Positions 1,003 to 22,939 of a stretch of 37,442 bases of DNA are shown piece by piece. Below the pieces are notes generated by a model, which was given only the letters and a program-made list of their open reading frames with translations, did not search any database and was not told where the DNA came from. Position 1 is the stretch's first letter. Every line of letters begins with the position of its first letter. Made by a program: the position numbers and the translations under genes. The stretch comes from Vicinamibacterales bacterium (GTDB lineage Bacteria; Acidobacteriota; Vicinamibacteria; Vicinamibacterales; 2-12-FULL-66-21), in the NCBI GenBank assembly GCA_035699745.1, contig DASSPH010000025.1, forward strand, positions 1 through 37,442, written 5' to 3'.

Positions 1003-1037
1003 ACTATAGGCACCACCTGTCCTATTGTCAATACATG
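1003..1037 (-). promoter_or_regulatory. Sigma70-like promoter with embedded putative GntR operator (site A)
   Basis: On the minus strand TTGACA (1031-1026), 17 nt, then TATAGT (1008-1003) form a near-consensus promoter about 20-30 nt upstream of the acylating dehydrogenase start. Overlapping the -35 box is TGT-N12-ACA (1018-1035, plus strand), the same arrangement as at 13313-13330 and 18067-18084. Read on the minus strand the arms are CATGT-N12-ACAGG. A repressor here would block the minus promoter and could also affect the plus-strand PQQ gene, whose -10-like box is at 1041. Confidence 0.7.
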
Positions 1038-1040
1038 CTA

Positions 1041-1046
1041 TATACT
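1041..1046 (+). promoter_or_regulatory. -10-like box of the PQQ dehydrogenase gene
   Basis: TATACT lies 8 nt before the ATG at 1055. No Shine-Dalgarno sequence fits in between, so transcription would start practically at the start codon. No good -35 box is visible upstream. Confidence 0.4.
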
Positions 1047-1054
1047 CCCCCACC

Positions 1055-3007
1055 ATGACACGCCAGCTCTCCCTCGCTGCGGCCGCCGCCGTCGTGCTCG
1101 GCGCCGGCGTCGCCGCGCAGAATGCCGCCCCCCCGGCGTCGAGGCCCGCGGGCGCCGCCCGCCCCGCCGCCGCCGCGGCGGCCAACGGCTCCGCCGCCAA
1201 TCCGCGCGACTGGCCGACCGTCGGCAACGATCCCGGCGGCGCGAAGTACTCCGCGCTCGCGCAGATCACGCCGGCCAACGTCACCCAGCTGACCAAGGCG
1301 TGGACCTACGACACGGGTGCGCCGGCCGCCGGCTACACCATCACGCCGATCGTCGTCAGCAACGTCATGTACCTGCCGGTGCAGGGCAGCGTCGTCGTCG
1401 CGCTCCAGGCCGACACCGGCAAGGAACTCTGGAAGTTCGACCTCAAGACGCTGCCCGACATCGGCCCGAATCCCTCGGCCGGCGGGCGCGGCATCTCGTA
1501 CTGGCCCGGCACGGCGCGCGTCGCGCCGCGCATCGTCATCGCCACCACCAACGGCTTCCTCGTCCAGCTCGACGCGAAGACCGGCAGGCCGGTTCCCAGG
1601 CCCGCCGGCATGGTGAACCTCGCGGCCGGCGTGATGGAGAAGTTCGAGGGACAGCAGTACTCGACCAACATGCCGCCGGCGCTCTACAAGAACCTTGCGA
1701 TCATCGCCGCCCGCACCGGCGAGCAGGGGCGCTACGGTCTTCCGGGCGATCCCCGGGCGTTCGACCTCCTCACCGGCAAGGAGGTCTGGCGCTTCCACAT
1801 CGTCCCGCATCCGGCCGACGAGAACTTCGGCACCTGGGGGCTGAACGGCTGGCAGGATCGCCGCGGCCCCGGCGTCTGGGTGCCGGTGAGCGTGGACCCG
1901 GTCAACGATCTCGTGTTCTTCCCGATGGGCAACGCCACCGACCAGAACTACGGCGGCAGCCGTCCGGGGATCAATCTCTATGCGACGACGCTGCTCGTGC
2001 TGCGCGCCTCGACGGGCAAGCGCGTCTGGCACCAGCAGCTCACCCACCACGACATCTACGACTGGGATTTGAGCGCGCCGCCGGCGCTCGGCGAAACGGT
2101 CAAGGACGGCAAGCGCATTCCGATCGTCGTGCAGATGACCAAGCAGGGCCTGCTGTTCATGTTTCACCGGCTGACCGGCGAGCCGCTGTTCGGGATGGAA
2201 GAGCGTCCGGTGCCGCGCTTCGACGCGCCCGGCGATCAGGCGTGGCCCACGCAGCCGTTCCCGCTGAAGCCCGTGGGCCTCACGCGCGACAGCATGACCC
2301 GCAAGGAAGTCAGCAGGATCTCCCCCGAGGCGGAGAAGTACTGCACGGAGCTGTTCGACAAGTCGGTGAACATGGGGCCGTACACGCCGTACGGCATGCT
2401 TCCCAGCCTCGTGTTCCCCGGCTCCGAAGGCGGCGGCGGCTGGGGCGGCGTGTCCGTCGATGCCGATCGCGGCCTCGTCTACGTGAATACCCGGCACCTC
2501 GGCGTCATCGCGCAGCTCCAGTCCAGCGTCTCGTCTGGCGTGCTGCCGTCGTTCGGCAAGCAGAAGGTGCCGACCAACTTCTACGTCGATCAGCAGGGCT
2601 ACCCGTGCAATGCGCCGCCGTGGGCGGAGATCGCCGCGGTCAGCACCACGACCGGCGACATCGTGTGGCGAACGCCGCTTGGTGAATACCCCGAGCTGAC
2701 CAGGAAGGGCATCACCGGTACCGGGACCGCGGTCAACGACGGCGGACCGATCTCCACCGCCAGCGGGCTGGTGTTCATCGGTTCGACGACCGACTACGGG
2801 TTCCGCGCGTTCGACGCGAAGACCGGGAAGGAGCTCTGGCGCGCCACGATGGATGACGACGTGCTGATGACGCCGCTCACGTATCAGGGAGCGAACGGCA
2901 AGCAGTTCGTGGTGGCAGTCGCCGGCGGCGGCGATGCCGCGTTCCACATTCCGCCCAAGCCTTCGCCGGGCGGCAACGCGACCGTGGTCGCGTTCTCACT
3001 GAAGTAG
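1055..3007 (+). CDS. Exported PQQ-dependent dehydrogenase (Gcd-like quinoprotein, no membrane domain)
   Basis: A 650-residue periplasmic quinoprotein predicted to oxidise an alcohol or sugar with PQQ. The ATG at 1055 is preferred over an upstream TTG at 1025 because it begins a signal peptide (residues 1-21, ending Val-Ala-Ala-Gln). The mature part starts with the family hallmark WPTVGNDPGGAKYS and contains propeller W-motifs such as DTGKELW. The active-site stretch is HHDIYDWD (331-338) and the C-terminal Gcd-like block is PCNAPPW (Cys518) followed by LGEYPE. It resembles the soluble domain of membrane glucose dehydrogenase, but lacks the N-terminal membrane helices and any C-terminal CxxCH cytochrome domain, so electrons must go to a separate acceptor. 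It is followed after 8 nt by the TIM-barrel gene, probably one transcript. Confidence 0.88.
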   Translation: MTRQLSLAAAAAVVLGAGVAAQNAAPPASRPAGAARPAAAAAANGSAANPRDWPTVGNDPGGAKYSALAQITPANVTQLTKAWTYDTGAPAAGYTITPIVVSNVMYLPVQGSVVVALQADTGKELWKFDLKTLPDIGPNPSAGGRGISYWPGTARVAPRIVIATTNGFLVQLDAKTGRPVPRPAGMVNLAAGVMEKFEGQQYSTNMPPALYKNLAIIAARTGEQGRYGLPGDPRAFDLLTGKEVWRFHIVPHPADENFGTWGLNGWQDRRGPGVWVPVSVDPVNDLVFFPMGNATDQNYGGSRPGINLYATTLLVLRASTGKRVWHQQLTHHDIYDWDLSAPPALGETVKDGKRIPIVVQMTKQGLLFMFHRLTGEPLFGMEERPVPRFDAPGDQAWPTQPFPLKPVGLTRDSMTRKEVSRISPEAEKYCTELFDKSVNMGPYTPYGMLPSLVFPGSEGGGGWGGVSVDADRGLVYVNTRHLGVIAQLQSSVSSGVLPSFGKQKVPTNFYVDQQGYPCNAPPWAEIAAVSTTTGDIVWRTPLGEYPELTRKGITGTGTAVNDGGPISTASGLVFIGSTTDYGFRAFDAKTGKELWRATMDDDVLMTPLTYQGANGKQFVVAVAGGGDAAFHIPPKPSPGGNATVVAFSLK

Positions 3008-3015
3008 AGGACGTC

Positions 3016-4326
3016 ATGGATCGACGCCAGTTCATTCACACGGGGATCATGGCGACGCTCGCCGCGAAGGTGCTGGGCGACGTGACGCTCGCGAAGGCAC
3101 AGCAGCCGCCGGCGGGCGCGCCGGCAGCCGCCGGGGCACAGCCGGCCACGCCGGCGCCGGCCGCACGCAAACTGATCATGGACTGTTACACGCGGAACCT
3201 GCACTGGATCCGCGATCACGATCAGATCGCCGAGGCGGCGATCGAGATGACGTGCGGCGGAATCCAGCCGACGGTGGGCGCGTATCCGGCGCACATCGAC
3301 GTGGCGAAGGTCGGCACGGAGCTGCCCGCGTTCGTGAAGACGATGCAGAAGCACGGGCTGCGGGTGAAGCAGATCCGCGGCGGCAACCAGCGGGCGGTCG
3401 GCGATCCGGGTCTCGAGGAGATGGTCGGCGCCATGGCGCAGGCCGGCGCGACGCACTACTGGTGCGGCACGGACACCTACGATCTGACCAGGCCGATCCT
3501 GCCGCAGCTGGACGAGATCAAGAAGAAGGTCGAAGGCTTCGTCAAGCTCAATCAGAAACACGGGACGACGCTGATGTATCACACGCGCGCCGGCGCGAAC
3601 TCGGTCGGCTCGGTGGTCTGGGATCTGCTCTACGTGATGAAGGAGTTCGATCCGAAATACGTCGGCTTCCACTGGGACACGGGGCACATGGCGATGCACG
3701 GCGGCAACATGTGGGAGCTGCTGATGCGCACCGCCGGACCGTACGTCGTCGCGGTGAGCTGGAAGGATCGCTCGTGGGAGCAGAATCTCGGCTTCCTCGG
3801 TGAAGGCGGTCCGTATCCGGGCCCGGTGGACGCGGCGGCGGCCGCGGCGGCGAATCCCGGAGGAGGACGCGGAGGCAGGGGCGCGCGTGGCGCGGCAGGT
3901 GCGCCAGGGGCCCAGGGTGCGGCAGGTGCGCAGGGCGCTCCCGGGGCGCGCGGCGCGGCGGGCGCCGGGTTTGGCGAAGGGGATGCGCCGCAGGCCGGAC
4001 GTGGCCGCGGACGAGGGCGCGGCGCCGGCCCGCGCGAGTTCCCGCTGCCCCTGGCGGGCAACACCTTCGCGCGCGGCGGCGGCTGGACGTCGATCATGGT
4101 GCCGATGGGCACCGGCGTGGTCGACATCTTCCGCTACGCCCGGGTGCTCGCCGACTTGAACTTCAACGGGCCGATGGAACTGCAGGCGGAGTACCTGAAC
4201 GGCGGCGCGCAGAGCGGCGCCGACAAGATCACACTGCCGCGCGAGATGGTGATTGGCAACCTGAAGCGGGACGTGCTCACAATCCGCGCAGCGCTGCAGC
4301 AGTCAGGGACTGGATTGACGTGCTAG
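3016..4326 (+). CDS. Tat-exported sugar phosphate isomerase/epimerase-like TIM-barrel protein with collagen-like insert
   Basis: A 436-residue protein starting with a twin-arginine signal (MDRRQFIHTG, then a hydrophobic stretch to about residue 30). Residues 50-265 match the xylose isomerase-like TIM barrel / AP endonuclease 2 family: a MDCYTRNLHW strand, alternating helices, and FHWDTGHMAMHGG, where His and Asp are likely metal ligands. Residues about 270-342 are a Gly/Ala/Arg/Gln tract with collagen-like Gly-X-Y runs, after which the barrel resumes (PLPLAGNTFARGGGW to the C-terminus). The insert therefore splits the domain late in the barrel. AGAGGA 8 nt upstream of the ATG is a good ribosome-binding site, and the start lies 8 nt after the PQQ dehydrogenase stop. 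The real substrate is unknown; pairing with a quinoprotein suggests handling of an oxidised sugar or polyol. Confidence 0.8.
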   Translation: MDRRQFIHTGIMATLAAKVLGDVTLAKAQQPPAGAPAAAGAQPATPAPAARKLIMDCYTRNLHWIRDHDQIAEAAIEMTCGGIQPTVGAYPAHIDVAKVGTELPAFVKTMQKHGLRVKQIRGGNQRAVGDPGLEEMVGAMAQAGATHYWCGTDTYDLTRPILPQLDEIKKKVEGFVKLNQKHGTTLMYHTRAGANSVGSVVWDLLYVMKEFDPKYVGFHWDTGHMAMHGGNMWELLMRTAGPYVVAVSWKDRSWEQNLGFLGEGGPYPGPVDAAAAAAANPGGGRGGRGARGAAGAPGAQGAAGAQGAPGARGAAGAGFGEGDAPQAGRGRGRGRGAGPREFPLPLAGNTFARGGGWTSIMVPMGTGVVDIFRYARVLADLNFNGPMELQAEYLNGGAQSGADKITLPREMVIGNLKRDVLTIRAALQQSGTGLTC

Positions 4327-4334
4327 TGATAGTG

Positions 4335-4533
4335 GCCAGTTGCCAGTAACCAGTTGCCAGTAACCAGTAACCAGTAACCAGTGACCAGTGACCAGTGGCC
4401 AGTCGCCGGAAAACTGCTCACTGACTAGTCGGACTGGCAACTGGCAACTGGCAACTGGCAACTGGCAACCGGCAACCGGCAACCGGCAACCGGCAACCGG
4501 CAACTGGCAACTGGCTACTGGCCACTGGCCACT
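4335..4533. repeat. Heptamer tandem repeat with inverted arms
   Basis: Left arm 4335-4404 is ten 7-bp units of the form (G/A)CCAGT(N). Right arm 4436-4533 is fourteen 7-bp units: GGCAACT x4, GGCAACC x5, GGCAACT x2, GGCTACT, GGCCACT x2. The right units are the reverse-complement type of the left (CCAGTNN versus NNACTGG), so the two arms can pair imperfectly across a 31-nt spacer. The array fills the space between two convergent genes and supplies the last codons and stop of the Sel1 gene. Confidence 0.9.
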
Positions 4534-5192
4534 GGCTTCCACTCAGCAACACGACGCCTGGCCACCGCGACCGCCTGTGGCGTCATCCGCGCCGCCGAAA
4601 TGTTGCGCAGCTCGAGCAGCCCCTTGCGGTTGTCCTCGAGCGGCGTCTGTCCGGCCGCCAGCGCGAACCACACGTACGCGGATTCGTAGTCACGCGGCAC
4701 GCCGGTGCCGTCGAAATACATCTGTCCGAGCTGATATTGCGCGCGAAGATCGTCCCCATCGGCGGCACGTCTGAACCAGCGCGCCGCTTCGGCCGCATCG
4801 GCGCGGACGCCGCGTCCTTTCAGGTGGAACTCGCCGATCGCGCGCGCCGCCGGCGCGCTGCCGTGCCCGGCCGCTTTCCGGTACCATTCGAGAGCGAGGC
4901 CGTCGTCGGCGGGCACGCCGAAGCCGAACTCGTAGATCTGCCCGAGATGATGCTCCGCCGGAGCCAGCTGCTGCGCCGCGGCCTTGCGGATCCACTCGAC
5001 GCCGGCGGCGGTCTGGGTGCTGCCGTAGTAGAGATACGAACCGAGCGAGAACTGGGCAATGGGATCGCCGTTCCCGGCGCGGGCGCGGGCGGCATCGACC
5101 GCGCGGGCGACGGACGGATCGTCGGCTCGCCGTGCGCTCCCGGAGGCCACCAGCAGATGCGCGGCGCACAGGACGCTGAGGAGAAGATGCAC
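4515..5192 (-). CDS. Exported Sel1/TPR-like repeat protein
   Basis: The 225-residue product begins at GTG 5192: a hydrophobic signal (VHLLLSVLCAAHLLVASG) follows directly, and GGAGGAA precedes it, though at only 3 nt spacing. Longer upstream starts would run into the divergent gene's promoter. Four Sel1-like repeats of about 36 residues follow, with the signatures AQFSLGSYLYYG, AEHHLGQIYEFGFGV, AARAIGEFHLKGRGV and AQYQLGQMYFDGTGV, interleaved with A..W..KAA helices. Such solenoids bind partner proteins in the envelope; no catalytic domain is present. The last six codons and the TAG stop lie inside the heptamer repeat array, so the C-terminal tail looks acquired from the repeat. It is divergent from the methyltransferase gene. 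Confidence 0.8.
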   Translation of the reverse strand: MHLLLSVLCAAHLLVASGSARRADDPSVARAVDAARARAGNGDPIAQFSLGSYLYYGSTQTAAGVEWIRKAAAQQLAPAEHHLGQIYEFGFGVPADDGLALEWYRKAAGHGSAPAARAIGEFHLKGRGVRADAAEAARWFRRAADGDDLRAQYQLGQMYFDGTGVPRDYESAYVWFALAAGQTPLEDNRKGLLELRNISAARMTPQAVAVARRRVAEWKPVASGQ

Positions 5193-5202
5193 GTTCCTCC
5201 GA

Positions 5203-5208
5203 ATTATA
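5203..5208 (-). promoter_or_regulatory. -10 box (TATAAT) of the Sel1-repeat gene
   Basis: A perfect TATAAT on the minus strand ends 10 nt before the GTG at 5192. Transcription would begin within the GGAGGA motif, leaving a leader of only a few bases. No clear -35 box. Confidence 0.45.
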
Positions 5209-5221
5209 CGGAGGGGATCGC

Positions 5222-5773
5222 GTGATCCCCAGGCTCGCGGCGGCGGTTGCGGCGGCGTTGCTGCTGTTCGTGCCGGCGCACGCACAGCAGACGCCGCGGC
5301 GCAACGCCGCCAGACCCGACGTCGTCTACATCCCGACGCCGCAGCCGGTCGTCGAGGCGATGCTGCAGCTGGCGGAGGTGAAGAAGACGGACGTGGTGTA
5401 CGACCTCGGCTCGGGTGACGGCCGCATCGTCATCACCGCGGCCAGGACGTACGGCGCCCGCGGCGTCGGCGTCGAGCTGGACGCGGAGCTGATCAAGCAG
5501 GCGCGGCAGAATGCCGCCGCCGCGGGGGTGGCCGATCGCGTCCGCTTCGTGAGGCAGGATCTGTTCAAGACGGATCTGCGCCCGGCAACGGTGGTGACGC
5601 TCTATCTGCTGCAGAGTTTGAACGAGCGCCTGCGGCCGAAGCTGGTTCGCGAGCTGCGCGCCGGCGCCCGCGTCGTCTCGCACGTCTTCAACATGGGACC
5701 GGAATGGCCGCCGCTGAAAACGGAGACGGTCGAGCGCAGCCGTATCTTCCTCTGGTCGGTGCCAGGGCGATAG
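5222..5773 (+). CDS. SAM-dependent methyltransferase with signal peptide (FAM173/ATPSC-KMT-like)
   Basis: A 183-residue class I methyltransferase. GTG 5222 is supported by GGAGGGG about 7 nt upstream and by the signal peptide that follows (hydrophobic 4-18, then AHAQQ). VYIPTPQPVVEAML precedes motif I, DLGSGDGR (61-68), then an acidic motif II (GVGVELDAE), and post-II QDLFKTDL. The pattern YxPTP...DLGSGDGRIVI...GARVV resembles the DOT1-like/FAM173 lysine methyltransferase group. An exported methyltransferase is odd because SAM is cytoplasmic; either the N-terminus is a membrane anchor facing inward or the true start is further in. It is followed by the cytochrome/HhH gene 21 nt downstream. 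Confidence 0.78.
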   Translation: MIPRLAAAVAAALLLFVPAHAQQTPRRNAARPDVVYIPTPQPVVEAMLQLAEVKKTDVVYDLGSGDGRIVITAARTYGARGVGVELDAELIKQARQNAAAAGVADRVRFVRQDLFKTDLRPATVVTLYLLQSLNERLRPKLVRELRAGARVVSHVFNMGPEWPPLKTETVERSRIFLWSVPGR

Positions 5774-5776
5774 CTC

Positions 5777-5782
5777 TAAAAT
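5777..5782 (+). promoter_or_regulatory. -10-like box before the cytochrome/HhH gene
   Basis: TAAAAT lies 12 nt upstream of the GTG at 5795, just after the methyltransferase stop. A GAGG at 5787-5790 could serve as ribosome-binding site. The gene may have its own start as well as read-through. Confidence 0.35.
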
Positions 5783-5794
5783 ATTCGAGGAACC

Positions 5795-6340: not shown

Positions 6341-6369
6341 GGCAGCCCGGGCGGGCGGACTGGGCGCCG

Positions 6370-7449
6370 TCAGCACACCTCGAACATCACCTTCACCGCC
6401 TCGCGCGCGCGCAGCGCGGCGAAGCCGTCCAGCGCGCCGGCCAGCGGCATCCGATGCGTGATCAGCCGCTCCGGGTGCAGCCGGCCCTCGGTCACCAGCC
6501 GGATCGCTTCCGCCCAGTGCCGCCGCACGCTGGCGACCACGCCCACCCAGGTCAGCTCCTTGCGCATCACCTGCAGGGCATCGATCTGCGTGTCGCGCAC
6601 CAGTCCCAGCGTCGCGAGCGTGCCGCCGGCGGCGGCGATGTCGATCGCCGTCTGTACCGCCTCCGGCGTGCCCGCGGCCTCGACGACGAGTCCTGCTCCG
6701 ACGCCGTGCGTCAGTTCTGACATGAACGCGTTCGCCGCGGCACGATCGGCGACGAGGGCGGCGTCGGCGCCGGCCTGCGCCGCGATCGCGAGACGCGCTT
6801 CGTCGCCGGGCCTGCCGAACACCACGATCGGCCCCGCGCCGGCGGCGCGCAGCGCGAGCAGGTGCAGCAACCCGAATGGTCCGGGCCCGAGGATCGCCGT
6901 CGGCGTGCCGGGGGCGGGACGGGTGCGTTCGACCGTATTGATCGCGGTGGCGAGCGGCTCGAGCAGAGCGGCCGCGTCGAGCGACATGCCGTCGGGGAGG
7001 GGGATCAGCGACGTCACCGGCACGACGACGAAGTCCGCGAGCGCGCCGTCCATCGTCAGCCCGACGTGATGCCAGTCGGGACAGAGGTTATAGCGTCCGC
7101 GAACGCAGTGGAAGCAGGCCCCGCATCCCGCCAGCGCTTCGATGACAACCCGGGTTTCCCGAAAACGGGGACAGTCCCCTTTTCCCCTGTCGCCGGGCGG
7201 GAAAAGGGGACTGTCCCCGTTTTCGCCGAGCGCCACGATCTCGCCGGCCGCCTCGTGGCCGAGGATCAGCGGACAGGGGACGGGACGATTGCGCCCCTTG
7301 TAGACGCCGTCAGAGACGAGCAGATCGGTGCCGCACAGGCCGGAGCGCCGGACGCGGACGAGCGCGGCGCCGGGACCGGGCCGCGGCTGCGGCACGTCGA
7401 GCAACGCGAGATGGCCCGCTCCCGGAGCCGACTTGACCAGCGCGTTCAT
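6370..7449 (-). CDS. Zinc-dependent medium-chain alcohol dehydrogenase, carrying an in-frame palindromic insert
   Basis: A 359-residue NAD(P)-dependent alcohol or polyol dehydrogenase of the MDR family. Catalytic zinc residues: Cys39 in GLCGTD and His65-Glu66 in GHEAAG. Structural zinc cysteines: 109, 112, 115 and 123. The Rossmann motif is LGPGPFG. Residues 76-97 (ENGDSPLFPPGDRGKGDCPR and two more) are encoded by a 66-bp palindromic element and disturb the loop that normally reads G-x-V-x-x-F-x-x-G-D-R-V. Without it the length would be about 337, close to the family's usual 340-345. The frame is preserved and both zinc sites are intact, so the enzyme may still fold. The start lies 22 nt after the PQQ dehydrogenase stop, implying one transcript. 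Confidence 0.85.
   Translation of the reverse strand: MNALVKSAPGAGHLALLDVPQPRPGPGAALVRVRRSGLCGTDLLVSDGVYKGRNRPVPCPLILGHEAAGEIVALGENGDSPLFPPGDRGKGDCPRFRETRVVIEALAGCGACFHCVRGRYNLCPDWHHVGLTMDGALADFVVVPVTSLIPLPDGMSLDAAALLEPLATAINTVERTRPAPGTPTAILGPGPFGLLHLLALRAAGAGPIVVFGRPGDEARLAIAAQAGADAALVADRAAANAFMSELTHGVGAGLVVEAAGTPEAVQTAIDIAAAGGTLATLGLVRDTQIDALQVMRKELTWVGVVASVRRHWAEAIRLVTEGRLHPERLITHRMPLAGALDGFAALRAREAVKVMFEVC
7160..7225. repeat. REP-like palindromic element inside the alcohol dehydrogenase gene
   Basis: Two 27-nt arms (7160-7186 and 7199-7225) are perfect reverse complements, each with the core GGGGACAGTCCCC, separated by a 12-nt loop. Total length 66 nt is a multiple of three, and the element is read as 22 extra codons. 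It resembles dispersed palindromes mobilised by REP-associated (Y1/RAYT) transposases, but no such transposase and no second copy are in this window. The loop itself encodes Pro-Pro-Gly-Asp, which resembles the native GDR motif of the MDR family. Confidence 0.85.
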
Positions 7450-7471
7450 GAGACCGGCAGCGCCGCGTCCG

Positions 7472-9550: not shown

Positions 9551-9758
9551 GCGGCATTCTCACTGCATTGACGACTGCGCGCCAACGGTTTAACGGTTAC
9601 ACGCCGTCGCTGAACGCGCCGTTGGCTCGACGCTCCCGCACGAAGGCGCCAGGATCACGAAGACCACACAGGCAAGTCTTCGTGGTCTTCGTGTTCTGCG
9701 TGTCTAGGTGTTCCTCGTGCCGGAGCGTGAGCCGCCGGGCGCGTCACAGCAAGTACAG
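9551..9758. other. Intergenic region with 12-bp stem-loop between PQQ dehydrogenase and TonB receptor
   Basis: This 208-nt gap has no gene. It holds a direct repeat AACGGTT (9584-9590 and 9592-9598) and a perfect 12-bp inverted repeat, CACGAAGACCAC (9656-9667) with GTGGTCTTCGTG (9682-9693), separated by 14 nt. The stem may end or attenuate transcription from the receptor gene, or protect its 3' end; there is no U-tract, so a factor-independent terminator is doubtful. Confidence 0.6.
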
Positions 9759-12700
9759 CTAGAAGCCGTACTTGACGGCGAACTGCATGATTCGCGGATC
9801 GCCGGTGGTGTTGGTCACGCGCCCGTTGGTCAGCGACGTCGAGCCGATCTGCACCGCCGGGTTCGCCCAGTTCGAGTGATTGAACAGGTTGAAGGCCTCG
9901 ACGCGCAGCTCGAGCCGCTTGCCGCCGCGGAAGTTGAGGTTGCGCGAGAACGACGCGTCGACGTTCCAGAACCCCGGGCCGACGAGATAGCCCTTGGGCG
10001 TATTGCCCCACACGCCGGGCGTGTTCGGCGCGAAGGCCGCGAGGTTGAACCACGCCCGCGACGGACTGCTGCCGGTGACCGCCCACGTGCGCTCGTCCTC
10101 GGACAGATACGGATCGACGCCGGACACGAGAATCGGACGCTGCGGCAGATTGGTCAGCGCCAGGTCGCCGGTCGTCGTCGGCGTGATCGGGCTGCCGCTG
10201 CGCGCCTGCCAGATGATGCCGGTCTGCCAGTCCTTGGTCAGCGTGCGGAGGAACCCGCCGCCGAGCCCGGGACTCACCAGCACCGCCGAGAGGTTGAAGT
10301 TGTGGCGCCGGTCGGCGACGCACGGTCCCTTGTTCGTCGACGCGTCCGGCCGCGGGTTGCTGCTGGTGATGTCCGCGATCGGCACCGGATAGGCGTTGCC
10401 GATGTCGCCGGCGCCGCCCGGTTCTCCCTCGTTGGTGCACTCGCTGTAGGTGTAGTTGGTGCTGGTGCTCCAGCCGCGGGAGAGCCGCCGCGTCAGCGTA
10501 AAGCGGACGCCCTGATACCAGCCGCGGGCATCGTCGTAGAGCTGCGCGACGGTGTTGGCGGCGTAGTACTGCCCTTCGGCGGGGTTCAGCAGTGTCAGGA
10601 GCGATCGCGCCTGGCGGTTCGCGGCGGTGGTGTTCGAGCACGGGCCGGCGGTGGTGAGCGCGTACTGCCCCGCCTGGCAGTTCCCCGGAATGTAGATGGT
10701 CGGATTCTCTTCATAGCCCGACCAGATGTGGATCGAGCGGTTCCCCATGTAGGTGACGTCGAACATCATGTTCGTGAAGAACTGCCGCTGGTACGACAGG
10801 TTCCACTGCGTCACCTGCATCGGCGTGAGGTCGACCGGCATGCTGACGAAGCCGCCCTGCACCGGGAATCTGACGCTGCTCGGCGCCACCTGCACCGGCT
10901 CGCCCTGCCGCGGATAGTTGATGGCCTTCAGCGGATCGCCGCCGGGGGTGTTCGCCCAGGGATCGGAGAAGTTCACGGCGCAGCCGTTCCGGTTCGGCAC
11001 CGGGCAGGAGGTCGGCGGCTGCGCATTCACGCGATTGCCGAACGGCGGGTTCAGCGGATGCCGCGCATAGGCCCACAGCCGGGGTGAATCGTAGTAGTGG
11101 CCGATGCCGGCGCGGATCGTCTGCTGATTGTTCCCTTTCGGATCCCAGACGATGCCGGCGCGGGGCGCGAACTGCGCCAGCCGGGTCCGGTTGTTCGAGC
11201 CGCTGTCGGGGAACCCTGGATCGCCCTTGAACATGAGGCCCGCCGGGGCGTTGGGGTACACCACGCTCCTGATGCCCTTGTCGAAGTTCTCGCGGCTGAA
11301 GGCCTGCTGGAAGCCGTTGTTGTCCTTGGCGGCGAGATACGGCTCCCAACGCACGCCGTAGTTCAGCGTGAACTTGCGGCCGGCGCGCCAGACGTCGCCG
11401 AAATACAGGCCAACGGCGTTGATCGATTGATTGTTGCGCTGGCTGCCGGCCTGGTTGAACGTCGCCGGCAGGCCGAGCACGAAGTCCGCCATCGCGAGAC
11501 CGCCGTTGGCGTTGTTCGTGCCGCTGGTGATCAGGCCGCTGAACCCGAAGGTGCCGTTGGAGGCGAACGTCCCGTCACCGTCGGTGTGGGGACGGGTCCA
11601 GACGCCGCCGAAGGACAGACTGTGCGAACCCTTGATCCAGTCGAAGTCCTGCGCGACCGACGGCGTGTCGACGTAGAACCGTCCGGTGAACCCGCTGTTG
11701 CTCCAACCGGCCGAGCCGCCGGCGAGGAAATCCTGGCCGCCGCCGGTGGTGTACTGGAAGGTGTTGACGCCGAGCGAGGTCCAGGTCGGCGCCCCCTCGC
11801 CCTGGATGCGCTCCGTCGAGGTGCTCTGATAGGTGACGCGGGTGGTGGCGACGAGCGTCGGCGAAATCACCCAGTCGTAGCCGCTCGCCATGGTCATCAT
11901 GCGGGCGTCGATGCCGAGGCCGGCGCCGCTGAGCATGAGCAGGTTCGGGTTGTTCTTGTCGAAGCCCGGCGCGTGCAGGTACTTGGTGTAGAACACGCGG
12001 CCGAACAGCCGTTTGTTCGAGGTCATCTGATAGTCGAGGCGCCCGATGTACTGCTGCTCGTCGCTGTCGTTGGGGATCTGCAGCACGTAGCGGCCGCAGC
12101 CGTCGGGATCGATCGCCGGATCCGGCAGCGGCAGCATGTTCATCATCTTCACCGCGATCGGGTGGAACAGCGACGGGTCGATGCGGTTGTTGACGTAGGG
12201 CGCGCCGAGGGTGCGGGCGGTGCCGCCGCGGCACGAGGCCGACATGATCCGGGTGAAGTCGCCGCGCCGCACGTCCGCGGTCGGGACGGTCTGGTCGGCG
12301 GCGAGCGGAGCGATGCGGGTGTTGGTGATCTGGGTCCCGCCGAAGAAGAACAGCTTGTCCTTCATCAGCGGACCGCCGAGCGTGCCGCCGATCTGATTCC
12401 GCTTCAACCCGTCGTCACGGCCGAGGCCGCCGTTCGCCTTCTTCTCGAAGTAGCGGATCGAGTTGAACCGGCTGTCGCGGACGAAGTCGAAGACGTTGCC
12501 GTGCAGGGTGTTGCCGCCGGACTTGGTGACCGCGTTGACGGTCGCGCCGGTCGACATGCCGTAGCGCGCGTTGCGCACGCCGTTCTCGGTCTTGAACTCC
12601 TGCAGCGCGTCGGGGAACGGCATCGGGTTGCCGGTGTTGTTCTGCGGATCGTTGTTGTACCCGCCGTCGACGAGGTACATCGTGCTGTTGCCGGTGCCGC

Positions 12701-13253
12701 CGGCGACCGAGATGGCCACCGCGTTGGGGTACTGGCGGTTGTCGGTGAGGGTGGTGTTCTCGACCGCGGATCCGGAGAGGACGATCAGCTGCAGGACGCT
12801 GCGGCCGTTCAGCGGCAGGCTGACGATCTGCTCCTGCGGCACGACGGCGCCGAGGTTGACGTTGCGGGTCTCGACCAGGTTGGCGTCGGACTGGACCGTC
12901 ACCGTCTCGGTCAGGCCGCCGACCTTCATGCTCACGTTGATGGAGCGGGCGTCGCCGACGACCAGCACGATGCCGGTCTGTTCGAAGGTGCTGAAGCCGC
13001 TCAGCTTGGACGACAGCTTGTAGGGGCCGACGGGGAGATTGGTGAAGATGTACTCCCCTTTCTCGTTCGTCACCATGAACCGGGTCATGCCGGTGTCGGT
13101 CTGGGTGACGGAGACCTCCACGCCGGGCAGGGCGCCGCCCGATTCGTCGAGCACCGTGCCCGAGAGCTGGGCCACCGCCACGGTCTGGGCCCGCGCCGCC
13201 GCGGGGACGAGCAACAGCGTCATTACGAACGCCAGCAAACAACGTCGCACCAT
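9759..13253 (-). CDS. Oar-like TonB-dependent outer-membrane receptor with carboxypeptidase-regulatory-like domain
   Basis: A 1164-residue outer-membrane transporter. ATG 13253 is chosen over an upstream ATG at 13313 because GGAGGGAGGAA lies just before it and the signal peptide follows at once (hydrophobic 7-21, AARAQ). Residues about 27-110 form a carboxypeptidase-regulatory-like beta-sandwich (LSGTVLDESGGALPGVEVSV). Then comes a plug domain (VPQEQIVSLPLNGRSVLQL) and a long beta-barrel ending in VKYGF with the typical terminal aromatic. The architecture is that of Acidobacteria/Myxococcus Oar-like receptors, which import large or bulky substrates using TonB energy. It heads the presumed receptor-PQQ dehydrogenase-alcohol dehydrogenase transcript and its promoter carries operator site B. 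Confidence 0.88.
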   Translation of the reverse strand: MVRRCLLAFVMTLLLVPAAARAQTVAVAQLSGTVLDESGGALPGVEVSVTQTDTGMTRFMVTNEKGEYIFTNLPVGPYKLSSKLSGFSTFEQTGIVLVVGDARSINVSMKVGGLTETVTVQSDANLVETRNVNLGAVVPQEQIVSLPLNGRSVLQLIVLSGSAVENTTLTDNRQYPNAVAISVAGGTGNSTMYLVDGGYNNDPQNNTGNPMPFPDALQEFKTENGVRNARYGMSTGATVNAVTKSGGNTLHGNVFDFVRDSRFNSIRYFEKKANGGLGRDDGLKRNQIGGTLGGPLMKDKLFFFGGTQITNTRIAPLAADQTVPTADVRRGDFTRIMSASCRGGTARTLGAPYVNNRIDPSLFHPIAVKMMNMLPLPDPAIDPDGCGRYVLQIPNDSDEQQYIGRLDYQMTSNKRLFGRVFYTKYLHAPGFDKNNPNLLMLSGAGLGIDARMMTMASGYDWVISPTLVATTRVTYQSTSTERIQGEGAPTWTSLGVNTFQYTTGGGQDFLAGGSAGWSNSGFTGRFYVDTPSVAQDFDWIKGSHSLSFGGVWTRPHTDGDGTFASNGTFGFSGLITSGTNNANGGLAMADFVLGLPATFNQAGSQRNNQSINAVGLYFGDVWRAGRKFTLNYGVRWEPYLAAKDNNGFQQAFSRENFDKGIRSVVYPNAPAGLMFKGDPGFPDSGSNNRTRLAQFAPRAGIVWDPKGNNQQTIRAGIGHYYDSPRLWAYARHPLNPPFGNRVNAQPPTSCPVPNRNGCAVNFSDPWANTPGGDPLKAINYPRQGEPVQVAPSSVRFPVQGGFVSMPVDLTPMQVTQWNLSYQRQFFTNMMFDVTYMGNRSIHIWSGYEENPTIYIPGNCQAGQYALTTAGPCSNTTAANRQARSLLTLLNPAEGQYYAANTVAQLYDDARGWYQGVRFTLTRRLSRGWSTSTNYTYSECTNEGEPGGAGDIGNAYPVPIADITSSNPRPDASTNKGPCVADRRHNFNLSAVLVSPGLGGGFLRTLTKDWQTGIIWQARSGSPITPTTTGDLALTNLPQRPILVSGVDPYLSEDERTWAVTGSSPSRAWFNLAAFAPNTPGVWGNTPKGYLVGPGFWNVDASFSRNLNFRGGKRLELRVEAFNLFNHSNWANPAVQIGSTSLTNGRVTNTTGDPRIMQFAVKYGF

Positions 13254-13296
13254 TTCCTCCCTCCGTGCCGCTACCGGAAAGGTCTGCAGGTGCGTA

Positions 13297-13332
13297 ACAC
13301 TAGGCCACAACATGTTCTAATGTCAATACAAC
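13297..13332 (-). promoter_or_regulatory. Promoter of the TonB receptor with putative GntR operator (site B)
   Basis: On the minus strand TTGACA (13326-13321), an 18-nt spacer and TAGTGT (13302-13297) give a plausible promoter about 45 nt upstream of the ATG at 13253. TGT-N12-ACA (13313-13330, plus strand) overlaps the -35 box, as at site A. About 27 positions around the -35 box and spacer are largely the same as at 1005-1035, although the coding regions downstream are unrelated. Confidence 0.65.
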
Positions 13333-13346
13333 ATGGCATTACCTGA

Positions 13347-13538
13347 TCCGGGGGCTTCGCCCCCCGGATCCCCTCCACGCTCGCTCGCTCGCCGCTCCGC
13401 CGGCTCGCTCCGTTCGCGTGGCTCGCTCGCGGCGCTCGCTCGCGTCGTACTTGGTTTCGACGTGGGCCTCCGAACTTACGTAGCGAACGAGCGCAGCGAG
13501 TGAGCGTGGAGGGGGGCGGGGGGCGAAGCCCCCCGGAT
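13347..13538. repeat. Large imperfect inverted repeat with nested GGGGGC-TTC-GCCCCC hairpins
   Basis: The left arm 13347-13380 and right arm 13505-13538 are reverse complements apart from about three or four differences. Each arm has its own hairpin (GGGGGC/GCCCCC stem). Between them are GCTCGCTCG-type short repeats. The element lies between the ThDP enzyme stop (13544) and the TonB promoter. It may terminate the ThDP operon before the receptor promoter, or be a mobile palindromic element; no ORF is convincing inside it. Confidence 0.75.
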
Positions 13539-13543
13539 AAAAA

Positions 13544-15277
13544 CTAGTCGTTGCCGTGAACGAGGAACTCGGCGATGTCCCAGTGGCCGGTGCGCGGCAT
13601 CGGCACGTCGCCGCGGGTCCAGACGTCGAGCAGGTAGGGCACGCCCGCGGCGACCGCGGCGCGCAGCGCCGCGGGCAGATCGTCCGGCTCCTGTACGCGC
13701 GCCGCGGCGATGCCGAACGCCTCCGCCAGCTTCACGAAGTCCGGGTTGTACGGCTTGCCGTCGGGGGTGGTGAACTCGGTGCCGTAGGCGTTGTTGAAAT
13801 ACGTCGTGCCGACGGTGCGGATGGTCGAGAAGCAGAAGTTGTTGAACAGCACCCAGACCACCGGAATCCCCAGCTCCACCGCCGTGGTCAGCGCGCCCAC
13901 CACCGAGAGGAACCCGCCGTCGCCGACCAGGCACATCACCGGCTTGTCGGGCGCGGCGATCTTGGCGCCGATCGCCGCCGCCGGCGCGAACCCCATCGTC
14001 GCCATGCCGCCGCTGGTGATGAAGCGCTGCGGCTGACGCGCGACCAGCTGCTGGCCGGCGCCGTTCTTGTTCCACCCGACGTCGGTCACGAAGATCGTCT
14101 CCGGCGACGCCACCCTCGAGATCTCGTTCAGCAGCCGCGCCGGATGAATGGGCGTGCCGCCGTTGCGCTGCTCCTTCGCGAGCTCCGTCTGCCAGTCGGC
14201 CTTGCCGCGCGCCAGGTCCGACGCGCGCGATGCCGACGGCCGCGCCGGCCGCGCGCGCAGCGCGTCGTGCAGCTCGCGCAGCGTCAGTTTCGCGTCGCCG
14301 ACGATGCCGACGTCGACGGGATAGATCTTGCCGATTTCCTGCGGCTCGATGTCGATCTGGATGAGGCGGGTCGGCGGAATCGAGAAGGTGTACTGCGGGT
14401 TCCACGAGCTGCAGTCCGCTTCGCCGAAGCCGGTGCCGACGGCGAGGATCACGTCCGCGGATCGCGCCGTCTCGTTCGCCACGCGCGTCCCCCAGATGCC
14501 GGTCATGCCGAGCGACAGGGCGTGATCCTCCGGAAAGATGCCCTTCGCCATCAGCGTGGTGGCGACCGGGACGGACAGCAGCTCCGCGACCTGGCGCAGC
14601 TCGGGGGAGGCCTCCGACAGCGTCGCGCCGTTGCCGGCGAAGATCATCGGCCGCGACGCCTTGGCGAGCAGATCGGCGGCGGCGGCGATGCCCGCCGGAT
14701 CGCCCGCGGTCTTGCCGTGCGTCGGACGGCGCGCCACGGTGATCGGCTCGGCGGCGATCGGCTGCGAGAACACGTCCATCGGCACGTCGAGCAGCACCGC
14801 GCCCGGGCGTCCCGTCTGCGCGAGATTGAGCGCGCGCGGCATCACGTCCGTCAGGTACCTCGCCGCGTCGATGCGCCAGACCCGTTTGCAGAACGGACGA
14901 TAGATGTCCCCCTGGGAGGCGTCGGCGTGGAAGCGGATCCCCTGGTGCGGCTCGCGCGCGTGATGGTACGACGGCGTGTTGCCGGTGATGACGAGCATCG
15001 GCGTCGAGTCGGCGGCGGCCGTCACCACGCCGGTCACCGCGTTGGTCATGCCCGGCGAGAGGTGGACGTTGAGGACGGCGAGCTTGTGCGACACGCGGAA
15101 GTAGGCGTCGGCGGCGTGCGCCGCCTGCTGCTCGTGGCGGAACGAGACATACTCGATGCCGAGCTTGTGGCAGGCGTCGATGAGCGCATAGTTGGTGTGG
15201 CCGCACTGGCCGAATACTTTCGTCACGCCCTCCTGCTCGAGGCAGCGGGCGATGAACATCGCTCCGGTCATATTCAT
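13544..15277 (-). CDS. Thiamine diphosphate-dependent enzyme (acetolactate synthase/oxalyl-CoA decarboxylase superfamily)
   Basis: A 577-residue cytoplasmic enzyme with the three domains of the ThDP decarboxylase/synthase superfamily. The PYR domain is at 1-170 with the cofactor-activating Glu49 in FRHEQQAAHAADAY. The central Rossmann-like domain is about 190-335. The PP domain follows, with the ThDP-Mg motif GDGGF about 25 residues before NN near residue 430-460. The family includes acetolactate synthase, glyoxylate carboligase, oxalyl-CoA decarboxylase, 2-hydroxyacyl-CoA lyase and sulfoacetaldehyde acetyltransferase. A class III CoA-transferase two genes upstream favours a CoA-linked C-C cleavage such as oxalyl-CoA decarboxylation or 2-hydroxyacyl-CoA lysis, but residues that would prove this are not identifiable by eye. 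Last gene of the CoA-transferase operon. Confidence 0.85.
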   Translation of the reverse strand: MNMTGAMFIARCLEQEGVTKVFGQCGHTNYALIDACHKLGIEYVSFRHEQQAAHAADAYFRVSHKLAVLNVHLSPGMTNAVTGVVTAAADSTPMLVITGNTPSYHHAREPHQGIRFHADASQGDIYRPFCKRVWRIDAARYLTDVMPRALNLAQTGRPGAVLLDVPMDVFSQPIAAEPITVARRPTHGKTAGDPAGIAAAADLLAKASRPMIFAGNGATLSEASPELRQVAELLSVPVATTLMAKGIFPEDHALSLGMTGIWGTRVANETARSADVILAVGTGFGEADCSSWNPQYTFSIPPTRLIQIDIEPQEIGKIYPVDVGIVGDAKLTLRELHDALRARPARPSASRASDLARGKADWQTELAKEQRNGGTPIHPARLLNEISRVASPETIFVTDVGWNKNGAGQQLVARQPQRFITSGGMATMGFAPAAAIGAKIAAPDKPVMCLVGDGGFLSVVGALTTAVELGIPVVWVLFNNFCFSTIRTVGTTYFNNAYGTEFTTPDGKPYNPDFVKLAEAFGIAAARVQEPDDLPAALRAAVAAGVPYLLDVWTRGDVPMPRTGHWDIAEFLVHGND

Positions 15278-15333
15278 TGGCCTCCCCTACACGCGCTCGC
15301 GCGGCAGGCTGCCGGCGCGCTCCGTTCGCGTCC

Positions 15334-15411
15334 AATCGTCAATCGTCAATCCGTCGATCGCCAACCGTCAATCGTCACTCGCCGATCGGCAATCGGCAAT
15401 CGGCAATCGGC
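15334..15411. repeat. Heptamer tandem repeat, second locus
   Basis: Eleven units of 7 bp (one of 8 bp): AATCGTC x2, AATCCGTC, GATCGCC, AACCGTC, AATCGTC, ACTCGCC, GATCGGC, AATCGGC x3. In the shifted phase the units read GTCAATC or GGCAATC, close to the GGCAACC/GGCAACT units at 4436-4533. It occupies most of the 141-nt gap between the aldehyde dehydrogenase stop and the ThDP enzyme start. Here all units point the same way. Confidence 0.85.
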
Positions 15412-15418
15412 AGTGACA

Positions 15419-16858
15419 TCAGGCCAGATTCAACGTGATCAGCCGTTCCTGGGTCATCTCCTGCATCGCGTACTTCGGCCCTTCGCGTCCCTGGCCGCTC
15501 TGCTTGACGCCGCCGAAGGGCATGAGGTCGACGCGGCTGCTCGAGGCGTCGTTGACGTGCAGCAGCCCGACCGACAGCCGCCGGGCGGCGCTCATCGCGC
15601 GGGTCAGGTCTCTGGTGAAGATGCCTGCCGCGAGGCCGAACGGCGTGTCGTTCGCCTGCGCGATGGCGGCGTCGAAGGCGTCGTAGGGAATGATCGACAC
15701 CACCGGCGCGAAGATCTCCTCGCACGACACCCGCATCGACGGCGAGACGTCGGCGAGGATCGTCGGCTGCAGCACCGCACCCTCCCGGCGGCCGCCGTGA
15801 ACCATTGTCGCGCCGGCGGCGACCGCCTCGCGCACCCACGACTCGGCGCGCGCCGCCTCCCGCTCGCTGATCATCGGTCCGACGTCCGTGCGCGGGTCGC
15901 GCGGATCGCCGACGACGAGCGCGGCGGCGGTCTCGGTGAGCCGGCGGCGGAACTCGGGTTCGACGCTGCGGTGCACGAACAGGCGCTGCGTCGAGGTGCA
16001 GACCTGCCCGGCGCGGCGGAAGGCGGACGCGGCGCAGCGCGCCGCGGCGCGGGCGAGGTCGGCGTCCTCGCACACGATCGTCGGCGAGATGCTCCCCAGC
16101 TCGAGCACCAGCGGACGCAGCCCGACGCGCTCGCGGATCCAGGCCCCGGCGCGCGCGCTGCCGGTGAACGTGTAGAAGTCCACCTGCGGGTTCTCGACGA
16201 GCCACGGTCCGAGATCCGCGCCGGCGCCGTGCACCAGGCCGAGGTGCCCCGGCGGCACGCCCGCCTCGAGCAGCAGCTCGAACAGCCGCACGCCGCTCAG
16301 CGGCGCCAGCTCGGACGGCTTCATCACCACCGCATTGCCCGACGCGAGCGCCGGCGCCACCTTGTGGCAGATCATGTTCAGCGGCGAGTTGAACGCGGTG
16401 ATCGCGCAGACCACGCCGCGCGGGACGCGGATGCTGAACGCCATCCGATGCGCCTGCCCCGGCGCCGCCTCGATCGGGACCATCTCGCCGACCAGCCGCT
16501 TCCCCTCCTCCGCCGAGACGATGCAGGTCTGCACCGCCCGCGACACCTCGGTGCGCGCGTCGCTGATCGGCAACCCGCCTTCCGCGGTGATCAGCGCCGC
16601 CAGCTCCTCGCGGTGCCGATCGATGAGGCGGGCGGTGTTCTGGAGGATGACGTAGCGCTGCTGCGGGTCGAGCGGCGTCCGGGCGAACGACGCCGCCGCG
16701 GCGGCGATCGCGGCATCGACCTGTTCGCGTCCCGCGCATTCGACGGCGCCGATCACCTCGCCGGTGTACTTGTCGCGCACGTCGAGCGGCGGCCGCGCTC
16801 CCGCGTGCCACTCGCCGCCGATGAGCAGCCGGCCGCGCCGCGGAGCAGCAGCGGCCAT
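15419..16858 (-). CDS. NAD(P)-dependent aldehyde dehydrogenase (lactaldehyde/GAPN-like)
   Basis: A 479-residue non-acylating ALDH that oxidises an aldehyde to its acid. ATG 16858 is 2 nt after the CoA-transferase stop, indicating translational coupling. Key residues: Asn157 in AFNSPLN, the NAD-binding FTGS at 231-234, general base Glu253 in LELGS, and nucleophile Cys287 in GQVCTS. The C-terminal FGGVKQSGQGREGPKYAMQE is typical of the lactaldehyde / non-phosphorylating glyceraldehyde-3-phosphate dehydrogenase branch. It probably supplies the acid that the upstream CoA-transferase activates, or removes the aldehyde released by the ThDP enzyme. The stop codon borders the heptamer repeat. Confidence 0.88.
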   Translation of the reverse strand: MAAAAPRRGRLLIGGEWHAGARPPLDVRDKYTGEVIGAVECAGREQVDAAIAAAAASFARTPLDPQQRYVILQNTARLIDRHREELAALITAEGGLPISDARTEVSRAVQTCIVSAEEGKRLVGEMVPIEAAPGQAHRMAFSIRVPRGVVCAITAFNSPLNMICHKVAPALASGNAVVMKPSELAPLSGVRLFELLLEAGVPPGHLGLVHGAGADLGPWLVENPQVDFYTFTGSARAGAWIRERVGLRPLVLELGSISPTIVCEDADLARAAARCAASAFRRAGQVCTSTQRLFVHRSVEPEFRRRLTETAAALVVGDPRDPRTDVGPMISEREAARAESWVREAVAAGATMVHGGRREGAVLQPTILADVSPSMRVSCEEIFAPVVSIIPYDAFDAAIAQANDTPFGLAAGIFTRDLTRAMSAARRLSVGLLHVNDASSSRVDLMPFGGVKQSGQGREGPKYAMQEMTQERLITLNLA

Positions 16859-16860
16859 GC

Positions 16861-18039
16861 TCAGATGACGCCGCGCTCGCGGAGGTGCTGCTGCTCGTCG
16901 CATGTGAGCCCCAGGGCGCCGTAGATGGCGTGATTGTCCTGCCCCAGCTCGCCGCCCGCCCACTGGATCTCGCCCGGGGTCTCGGAGAACCGCGGGACGA
17001 CGGCGTGCATGCGGACGGCGCCCGATCCGTTCGGCACGTCGCGGGTGAGGCCGCGCGCCCGCCAGTGCGGATGCGCCTCGATGTCGGCGATGGTCTGCAC
17101 CGGGATGGCGGTGAGCTGGTTGGCGGCGATGACGGCGACGTTCTCGGCGAGCGAGCGCGCCGCGATCGCGCCGGCGATCGCCTCGTCCAGCTCGCGGGCG
17201 TGCTCGACCCGGGCCGCGTTGGTGGCGAACCGCGGATCGTCGAGGAGATCGTCGAGGCCGTAGCTGCGGAGGAAGCGCTCCGCCATCTTCGGCGTCGAGC
17301 CGCTGACCGCGATCCACCCGCCGTCGGCGGTGCGGTAGCAGCCGCGCGGCCCGGCGTTGCGCGAGCGGCTGCCGTCGCGGCGCCGCTGGCGCCCGGTCGC
17401 GGAGTACTCGGCGGCGAGCGGCCCGAGCAGCGAGAACAGCGACTCGAACAGCGAGACGTCGATCACCTGCCCGCCGGCGTGGTGCACGTCGCGGTGGTAG
17501 AGCGCGAACATCACGGCGTTGCTGGCGTACAGCGCCGAGACGCTGTCGGCGAGCGGGAAGGCGGGCACGATCGGCCCGCGATCGGGCTCGCCGTTCATTT
17601 CCGCGAAGCCGGTGGCGGCCTCGACCAGGGTGCCGAATCCGGGACGGCCGCTGTCGGGGCCGGTCTGCCCCCAGCCCGAGATGCGCAGGAGGATCAGGCC
17701 GGGACGATGCGCCTTGAGCGTGTCCCAGTCCAGACCGAGACGCTCGAGCGTGCCGGGGACGAACGACTCCATCAGCACGTCGAACTGCGGCAGCATCTTC
17801 AGCAGCAGCGCGCGTCCTTCCGGCGCCTTCAGGTTGAGCGTGACGAACCGCTTGTTGCGGGCGTAGACCTTCCACCACAGCGGCGCGCCGTCCGCGGTCC
17901 ACTGCCGCAGCGGATCGCCGCTGCCCGGCTGCTCGATCTTGACGACCTCGGCGCCGAAGTCGGCCATCAGCATGCCGGCGATGCCGCCGGCGACCATGCG
18001 CGACAAGTCGAGAACGCGGATGCCGTGGAGCGCTTTCAT
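16861..18039 (-). CDS. Class III (CaiB/BaiF/Frc) CoA-transferase
   Basis: A 392-residue cytoplasmic enzyme that moves CoA between organic acids through an aspartyl-CoA thioester intermediate. The N-terminus LHGIRVLDLSRMVAGGIAGM and FGAEVVKIEQPGSGDP are family hallmarks, as are the RNKR at 61-64 and the GYGQTGP-like GWGQTGP at 122-128. The catalytic aspartate is Asp165 in PLADSVSALYA. Length fits the family (380-430). First gene of a three-gene operon with an ALDH and a ThDP enzyme, divergent from the GntR regulator. The exact acids are not deducible; formyl-CoA:oxalate and 2-hydroxyacid partners are both conceivable given the ThDP enzyme. Confidence 0.9.
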   Translation of the reverse strand: MKALHGIRVLDLSRMVAGGIAGMLMADFGAEVVKIEQPGSGDPLRQWTADGAPLWWKVYARNKRFVTLNLKAPEGRALLLKMLPQFDVLMESFVPGTLERLGLDWDTLKAHRPGLILLRISGWGQTGPDSGRPGFGTLVEAATGFAEMNGEPDRGPIVPAFPLADSVSALYASNAVMFALYHRDVHHAGGQVIDVSLFESLFSLLGPLAAEYSATGRQRRRDGSRSRNAGPRGCYRTADGGWIAVSGSTPKMAERFLRSYGLDDLLDDPRFATNAARVEHARELDEAIAGAIAARSLAENVAVIAANQLTAIPVQTIADIEAHPHWRARGLTRDVPNGSGAVRMHAVVPRFSETPGEIQWAGGELGQDNHAIYGALGLTCDEQQHLRERGVI

Positions 18040-18058
18040 GACGGGGTAATCAGGTGAG

Positions 18059-18086
18059 AGTATACTTGTCTGGATAACAATACAAG
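18059..18086. promoter_or_regulatory. Divergent control region with palindromic GntR operator (site C)
   Basis: CTTGT (18065-18069) and ACAAG (18082-18086) form a perfect 5-12-5 inverted repeat midway between the CoA-transferase and the regulator. On the minus strand a -10 box TATACT (18064-18059) abuts it, 20 nt before the CoA-transferase ATG. It is the most symmetric of three related sites in the window and sits where a self-regulating repressor would bind. The -35 boxes are weak on both strands. Confidence 0.7.
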
Positions 18087-22830: not shown

Positions 22831-22939
22831 ACGCCTTCATCAGCAGGTAGTACATGCCGCCCGCCGCGGCAGAACTGAACGCGGGCTCGATGTCCCGGTT
22901 GTACTCGACCGGTTGGCCACCGGCCAATTGATTGACGTA

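Follow-up and report, generated by a model that had tools for sequence, protein, structure and literature searches.

The window analysed here is the whole 37,442-bp contig G000:C25 of a Vicinamibacterales genome (G000; 6,304,472 bp in 110 contigs), and it carries an island of predicted catabolic genes together with gntR, a gene for a regulator of the GntR family. Three copies of a short element stand before these genes, and the HutC-type GntR protein encoded at 18111-18965 very probably acts on this predicted operator as a repressor. Each copy reads TGT-N12-ACA and ends in CAATACA, at the three positions given by a sequence-only reading of the window. The copies, designated sites A, B and C, and the genes around them are as follows.

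1018 to 1035, minus strand: predicted operator A, TGTATTGACAATAGGACA, 42 bp to the aldehyde dehydrogenase start (975) and 19 bp to the PQQ1 start (1055).
13313 to 13330, minus strand: predicted operator B, TGTATTGACATTAGAACA, 59 bp to the likely TonB receptor start (13253), with TTGACA inside.
18067 to 18084, minus strand: predicted operator C, TGTATTGTTATCCAGACA, 27 bp to the CoA-transferase start (18039) and 26 bp to the gntR start (18111), abutting TATACT.
18111 to 18965, plus strand: HutC-type GntR regulator (gntR), rightward from site C, with GntR (PF00392) and UTRA (PF07702) domains.
16861 to 18039, minus strand: CoA-transferase family III, gene 1 leftward of site C.
15419 to 16864, minus strand: aldehyde dehydrogenase, gene 2 leftward of site C, start codon assumed.
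13544 to 15277, minus strand: thiamine-pyrophosphate (TPP) enzyme, gene 3 leftward of site C.
9759 to 13253, minus strand: TonB-type outer-membrane receptor (OMP_b-brl_4, CarboxypepD_reg), gene 1 leftward of site B, start at 13253 likely.
7472 to 9550, minus strand: PQQ-type dehydrogenase, leftward of site B.
6370 to 7449, minus strand: zinc alcohol dehydrogenase family protein, leftward of site B.
1 to 975, minus strand: acylating aldehyde dehydrogenase (SauS/AdhE-like, scoring under the curated cut-offs), leftward of site A, truncated by the contig end.
1055 to 3007, plus strand: PQQ-type dehydrogenase PQQ1, rightward of site A.
3016 to 4326, plus strand: xylose-isomerase-like TIM-barrel protein, downstream of PQQ1.

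Exact matches to TGT-N8-CAATACA number three in the whole of G000, namely A, B and C, and the reversed-pattern control gives none, so the exact form is not frequent elsewhere in the genome. Under random placement, the chance that the second and third matches would share the contig of the first is about 3.5e-5. Judged by its letters, the element is an 18-22 bp palindrome, with bases 9 and 10 of the 18-mer on either side of its centre. Site C, between the regulator and CoA-transferase genes, is indeed a perfect CTTGT-N12-ACAAG palindrome, as had been proposed, with 8 of 11 pairs matching over 22 bp. Twelve sites gathered with motifs of the same shape and read on both strands give the palindromic consensus CNTGTATKGWY·RWCMATACANG with GT-N12-AC, in which GT and AC are invariant (24/24 half-sites) and base 7 is G in 18/24.

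Orthologues of the regulator, 55-68% identical over the alignment, are present in G049, G004, L037 (G120), L038 (G132), L039 (G543) and L040 (G544), the last two loci belonging to Methylomirabilota genomes. At an E-value of 1e-50 the regulator occurs in 5/193 genomes of the class, its own included, and at 1e-40 in 2/396 sampled genomes of the phylum, both in that same class, with few candidates scored per genome. A matrix trained on A, B and C alone, in a 22-bp form and an 18-bp core form, identified 11 sites scoring at least 20 when run over the orthologous loci (142,595 bp); the sites are spread over five of the six genomes, and no site at that score appeared in 60 simulated sets (with a GT/ACA prefilter); at a score of at least 12 there were 14 matches in the orthologous loci versus a null of 1.4. 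Strong sites lie between gntR and the CoA-transferase gene in G049, L037 and L038, between gntR and the acylating aldehyde dehydrogenase gene in G004, before the TonB receptor gene in G049, G004 and L038, before the CoA-transferase gene in G004, and between gntR and a citrate-synthase-like gene (by Pfam) in L038. Nine of the 11 thus precede homologous genes or the citrate-synthase-like gene, and a site common to gntR and its divergent gene, frequent in the HutC subfamily though no defining trait of it, occurs in the window, G049, G004, L037 and L038. The element is therefore found before orthologous genes in other genomes; its absence there, or its frequency at unrelated promoters of the genome, would have refuted the sequence-only reading, and neither was observed. 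Two of these sites, L111:9053 (before the TonB receptor gene; 20.2 by the window-only matrix) and L111:16578 (before the CoA-transferase gene; 29.0), were first met in a matrix scan.

The remaining two strong sites belong to L039, where they stand before a branched-chain-type transporter operon and before a gene for a FAD-binding protein (by Pfam); the latter site falls within the longest possible reading frame, whose true start is probably further in. At this locus the regulator is the sole match among 16 window proteins and two strong operators are nonetheless present, which argues that the motif follows the regulator. The L040 genome has a perfect operator copy on the regulator's contig, about 27 kb from gntR in contig coordinates, before the same transporter operon as in L039.

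Some features of these loci are worth recording in their own right. At L039:3737 and 9760, the operator and about 60 bp of adjoining promoter-like sequence downstream are duplicated nearly letter for letter, 6 kb apart. The G004 orthologue of the TonB receptor (L111:5614-9007) is split across two overlapping frames, through a broken gene or an assembly fault, and L040:8356-9135 holds a second UTRA-domain GntR gene, 28% identical, beside the orthologue and near hydantoinase genes. In L037 and L111 the TPP and CoA-transferase genes are separated by genes for citrate-synthase-like and MFS-transporter proteins.

The palindromic consensus, with 2 mismatches allowed, matches 13 places in seven genomes, 10 of them on the regulator's contig, with no match in G120 and reversed controls of 0 in all seven. 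All 10 one-mismatch places on the regulators' contigs score at least 21.3 by the window-only 18-bp matrix, and of the 44 on other contigs only one in G049 (G049:C333) reaches that value (22.8), the next scoring 18.8. This place (G049:C333:7869-7886; L138:1501) is a near-copy of operator B before a TIM-barrel gene 37% identical to the gene at 3016-4326 of the window and, because it precedes that homologue, probably belongs to the regulon as an unlinked gene. The other 43, with 18-bp core scores of 18.8 or less, were treated as background; the two highest of these, G004:C18 (18.8) and G000:C110 (17.1), are each found where a long frame ends, with no visible gene start after them, and G120:C3 (15.0) was likewise taken as background. 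A further place, G004:C63:121658, is a candidate only, being inside another frame and some way before a TRAP-transporter gene (TAtT). The GT-N12-AC element at L037:16761-16778 scores 16.0 on 22 bp and 11.3 on the 18-bp core, within background, and was not counted as a site; it is flanked by a short GntR-like gene (16848-17273) and by frames resembling the PQQ, TIM-barrel and aldehyde dehydrogenase genes of site A. Across the class, a stringent pattern is found in 4/5 genomes with the regulator and is absent from 187/188 without it (Fisher 4.4e-7, a descriptive value only). The sole regulator-free match, in G030, lies within a reading frame that by eye resembles a response regulator and was discarded.

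Several observations weigh against reading the element as the operator of a conserved regulon. The 4/5 figure and the Fisher value are circular, because the positives include genomes whose sites shaped the stringent pattern; absence from 187/188 genomes is the informative part of the class survey, and the matrix tests are free of that circularity. Taken by itself, the window holds 7 matches when up to 2 mismatches are allowed, versus a shuffle mean of 4.44 (12/100 shuffles reach 7), and since this count is not significant the case rests on exact matches and conservation. The relaxed minus-strand form with 1 mismatch occurs at 6 places in the genome, 3 of them beyond A, B and C, versus 3 for the reversed control, and across five genomes the one-mismatch pattern finds 54 places versus 33 for its reversed control, mostly background. 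Sites A and B are poor palindromes, with 5/11 matching pairs each. AT-rich control DNA from distant loci yields 3 matches of at least 20 in 1,145,100 bp, so the matrix score is less specific in such DNA. The L037 TonB gene is without a good site (best score 6.1), the fetched L040 locus has no site of at least 20, and the gntR-proximal site of L039 and L040 scores 17.6 (22 bp) or 16.9 (18-bp core) and lacks the right AC, where background reaches 18.8. The transporter proteins of L039 and L040 are 90-99% identical and the two are near neighbours, so they count as one lineage. Finally, the interdomain linker of the regulator shows no large insertion relative to NagR, which leaves the wide spacing of the operator unexplained by protein sequence.

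The regulator itself is a member of the GntR family and, by its domains, of the HutC subfamily, in agreement with the sequence-only reading: a GntR winged helix-turn-helix (PF00392; 68.9 bits, residues 14-77) is followed by a chorismate-lyase-like UTRA domain (PF07702; 98.9 bits, residues 108-240). None of the named NCBIfam regulators scores above its cut-off, the best being the Rv0792c family (109.2/400 bits), followed by HutC (100.5/220), TreR (84.2/211.95) and PhnF (75.3/156.8). TreR has a non-Arg residue at the position of Arg38 of NagR, as does the window regulator, and TreR/HutC-type operators, TTGTATATACAA, share the outer TTGTAT half-site seen here, the halves in the present element lying 8 bases further apart. 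The top PDB matches of the window regulator are NagR and DasR, and with these GntR/HutC repressors (NagR/YvoA and DasR) it has the GntR-UTRA domain order in common; the equivalent of NagR Arg48 is kept. In the alignment to NagR, R51 corresponds to Arg48 and H41 to Arg38; R51 is kept in 7/7 orthologues, and position 41 is H, N or S. In NagR, Arg48 reads guanine G-4, which is the G of GT, and Arg38 reads G-5, the guanine just before it (PMC4333415). An invariant R51 with a non-Arg residue at position 41 therefore fits a TGT half-site and not GGT, which supports the pairing of protein and operator.

The spacing of this operator departs from what is usual for the subfamily. Most HutC sites are GT-N4-AC, with a 4-nt distance, and the exceptions include FarR, NagQ and SdhR, according to PMC4494728; the earlier suggestion that a 12-bp spacer would be unusual for a HutC-type protein agrees with this. 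The NagR palindrome, GTGGTCTAGACCAC, is GT-N4-AC with half-sites six nucleotides apart by the counting used in PMC4333415, whereas the element here is GT-N12-AC with TGTAT halves. By the account of PMC4494728, FarR and NagQ break the GT-N4-AC rule as the present sites do, but with direct repeats and not a palindrome; SdhR has a longer palindrome, whose quoted letters contain GT-N10-AC by our own reading and which differs from ours in sequence and spacing; and in the YtrA subfamily, as here, the conserved GT and AC stand well away from the centre of the palindrome. The C-terminal domain of YtrA proteins is short, whereas the window regulator has a full UTRA domain and so falls outside that subfamily. 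Departure from the GT-N4-AC form, which is usual but not universal, makes the operator a less standard one and leaves HutC membership, which is judged by domains, untouched.

A control on spacing drew on distant relatives and comprised 44 upstream regions: 40 from a set of 72 loci, chosen for their near full-length matches, and 4 from other loci. With 4/4 extra pairs required, GT-N4-AC occurs in 4/44 of them versus an expected 0.16, a count reached by 0/100 shuffles, and GT-N12-AC occurs in 0/44; among other spacings, N9 was seen twice (expected 0.2) and N7 and N18 once each. In the seven orthologues, under the looser requirement of 3/4 extra pairs, N12 occurs in 3/7 versus an expected 0.52 (3/200 shuffles reach this), and N5 is next with 2/7 (16/200 shuffles). 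Because N12 is prominent in the orthologues and is found in 0/44 of the distant relatives, wide spacing seems to be a peculiarity of this lineage. We lean towards a reading in which a HutC-type lineage of Acidobacteriota (Vicinamibacteria-like) and Methylomirabilota reads TGTAT half-sites 8 bp further apart than NagR and the usual HutC proteins do, with one dimer per operator, a geometry that would be novel among the UTRA-domain GntR proteins known to us. DNA-bound NagR has loosely attached DNA-binding domains (PMC4333415), so other operator spacings are conceivable. This dimer geometry is less sure than the link between protein and operator.

Other arrangements of protein on the same DNA have to be weighed against a single dimer. 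Two dimers might sit on overlapping half-elements, the long palindrome being a dimer of dimers, and for four HutC groups Suvorova et al. (PMC4494728) indeed describe additional half-sites, 7-12 nt away from the centre of the site; we nevertheless regard this as unlikely, given that 10/17 of the collected sites contain no GT-N4-AC and that two dimers 8 bp apart would be expected to crowd each other. Somewhat more doubtful still is the proposal that a short, normal HutC site of 10 bp, TGTATTGACA (GT-N4-AC), inside the element is what the protein reads, with the outer symmetry secondary. GT-N4-AC is present in A and B and somewhere in 7/17 collected sites overall, but GT-N12-AC occurs in 14/17, a partly circular comparison since the sites were picked by that shape, and the predominant G at base 7 of the half-sites stands where a short palindrome of the TGTATATACA type would need T.

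The identity of the protein and the reality of the element bear on the remaining explanations. An unlinked regulator could bind the sites, with gntR merely one of its targets, and here it may be said that GT-N12-AC is atypical for HutC proteins (PMC4494728) and that binding by GntR is a prediction; we give this little credence, since L039 carries its two strong operators with the regulator as the only matched protein, the stringent motif is missing from nearly all class genomes without the regulator, and R51 is kept at the position with which NagR reads the G of GT. Chance, or mere conservation of promoter hexamers such as TTGACA, would sit well with the unremarkable 2-mismatch count in the window and with the presence of TTGACA in 6/17 collected sites, but 11/17 lack the hexamer, the exact match is rare genome-wide and the reversed control of the palindromic pattern is 0 in all seven genomes; once the genome had been searched for exact matches and the class surveyed, we rejected this explanation as very improbable indeed.

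Promoter-like sequences adjoin two of the three sites.

1003 to 1031, minus strand (leftward): sigma-70-type promoter TTGACA-17-TATAGT, overlapping operator A; 11/12, shuffle mean 0.0.
18038 to 18066, plus strand (rightward): promoter-like pair ATGACG-17-TATACT before gntR; 9/12, shuffle mean 0.1.

The sequence-only reading had placed A and B over a TTGACA -35 box. The hexamer is present on the minus strand at both (1031-1026 in A and 13326-13321 in B), and operator A covers the -35 of a full leftward promoter, but the scan found no promoter at B despite the TTGACA in the site. TATACT at 18061-18066 adjoins site C, as had been stated; the scan found no leftward promoter there, only the rightward pair towards gntR. 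A leftward -10 may exist at 18064-18059, because AGTATACT is its own reverse complement. The layout of operators and start codons (42/19 bp at A, 59 at B and 27/26 at C) suits a repressor blocking RNA polymerase, and site A is positioned to serve both directions.

The sites, their positions before genes, the rarity of the exact form and its conservation alongside the regulator were observed; we infer binding and the extents of the operons, and, from family knowledge and gene content, repression, the effector and the substrate. One dimer would most likely hold the palindrome at A, B and C in the absence of ligand and block transcription, masking the TTGACA -35 box at A and B and lying next to TATACT at C. 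Through C the regulator would shut its own gene and also control the operon of the CoA-transferase, aldehyde dehydrogenase and TPP enzyme; B would control a unit for outer-membrane uptake and PQQ oxidation, and A the acylating aldehyde dehydrogenase and the PQQ1 operon. The repressor may be released when its UTRA domain binds a small molecule, for which a carboxylate, or the CoA or aldehyde derivative of one, is conceivable. Outer-membrane uptake and PQQ oxidation would then proceed, and a small acid or alcohol would be broken down in a CoA-dependent way. That four transcription units and the regulator form one local regulon including the TonB receptor, as first suggested, is supported by the rarity of the exact match and by conservation with the regulator; the unit left of B is refined to the TonB receptor, PQQ dehydrogenase and alcohol dehydrogenase.

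The nearest PDB match of the TPP enzyme is BbmA, followed by glyoxylate carboligase and acetolactate synthases, and none of ten window proteins reaches an NCBIfam curated cut-off (for four of them, among the best 25 families). Oxalate-type, 2-hydroxyacyl-CoA lyase and sulfoacetaldehyde routes were weighed and none was adopted, no listed NCBIfam cut-off being reached. Intergenic stretches of the island at 4331-4536 and 15333-15409 hold arrays of 7-base units (CCAGTAA; ACTGGCA, 14.9 copies at 95%; CAATCGT). A GC-rich inverted element, GGGGGCTTCGCCCCCC flanking CGCTCG-type repeats, separates operator B from the TPP gene at 13340-13540; the pattern written for this element hit two places, both on other contigs, and missed the window copy, and so gives no count of it. 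Elsewhere on the contig, 22932-26447 and 29408-32614 encode two long repeat proteins, which by eye look BNR/sortilin-like.

The regulon is of an ordinary kind; what is new is that a UTRA-domain regulator would have so wide an operator, GT-N12-AC, for which a limited literature search found no description, as it found no comparable regulon in Acidobacteriota. About 30% of GntR regulators are of the HutC type, and GT-N4-AC describes most HutC sites (PMC4494728). If our reading is right, a natural lineage in which the reading residue is kept and the operator widened would show that predicting regulons by the GT-N4-AC rule can go astray. Such a lineage would also be a clear system in which to ask how operator spacing depends on DNA-binding domains that are loosely attached, and the island offers a compact, testable regulon in Acidobacteriota.

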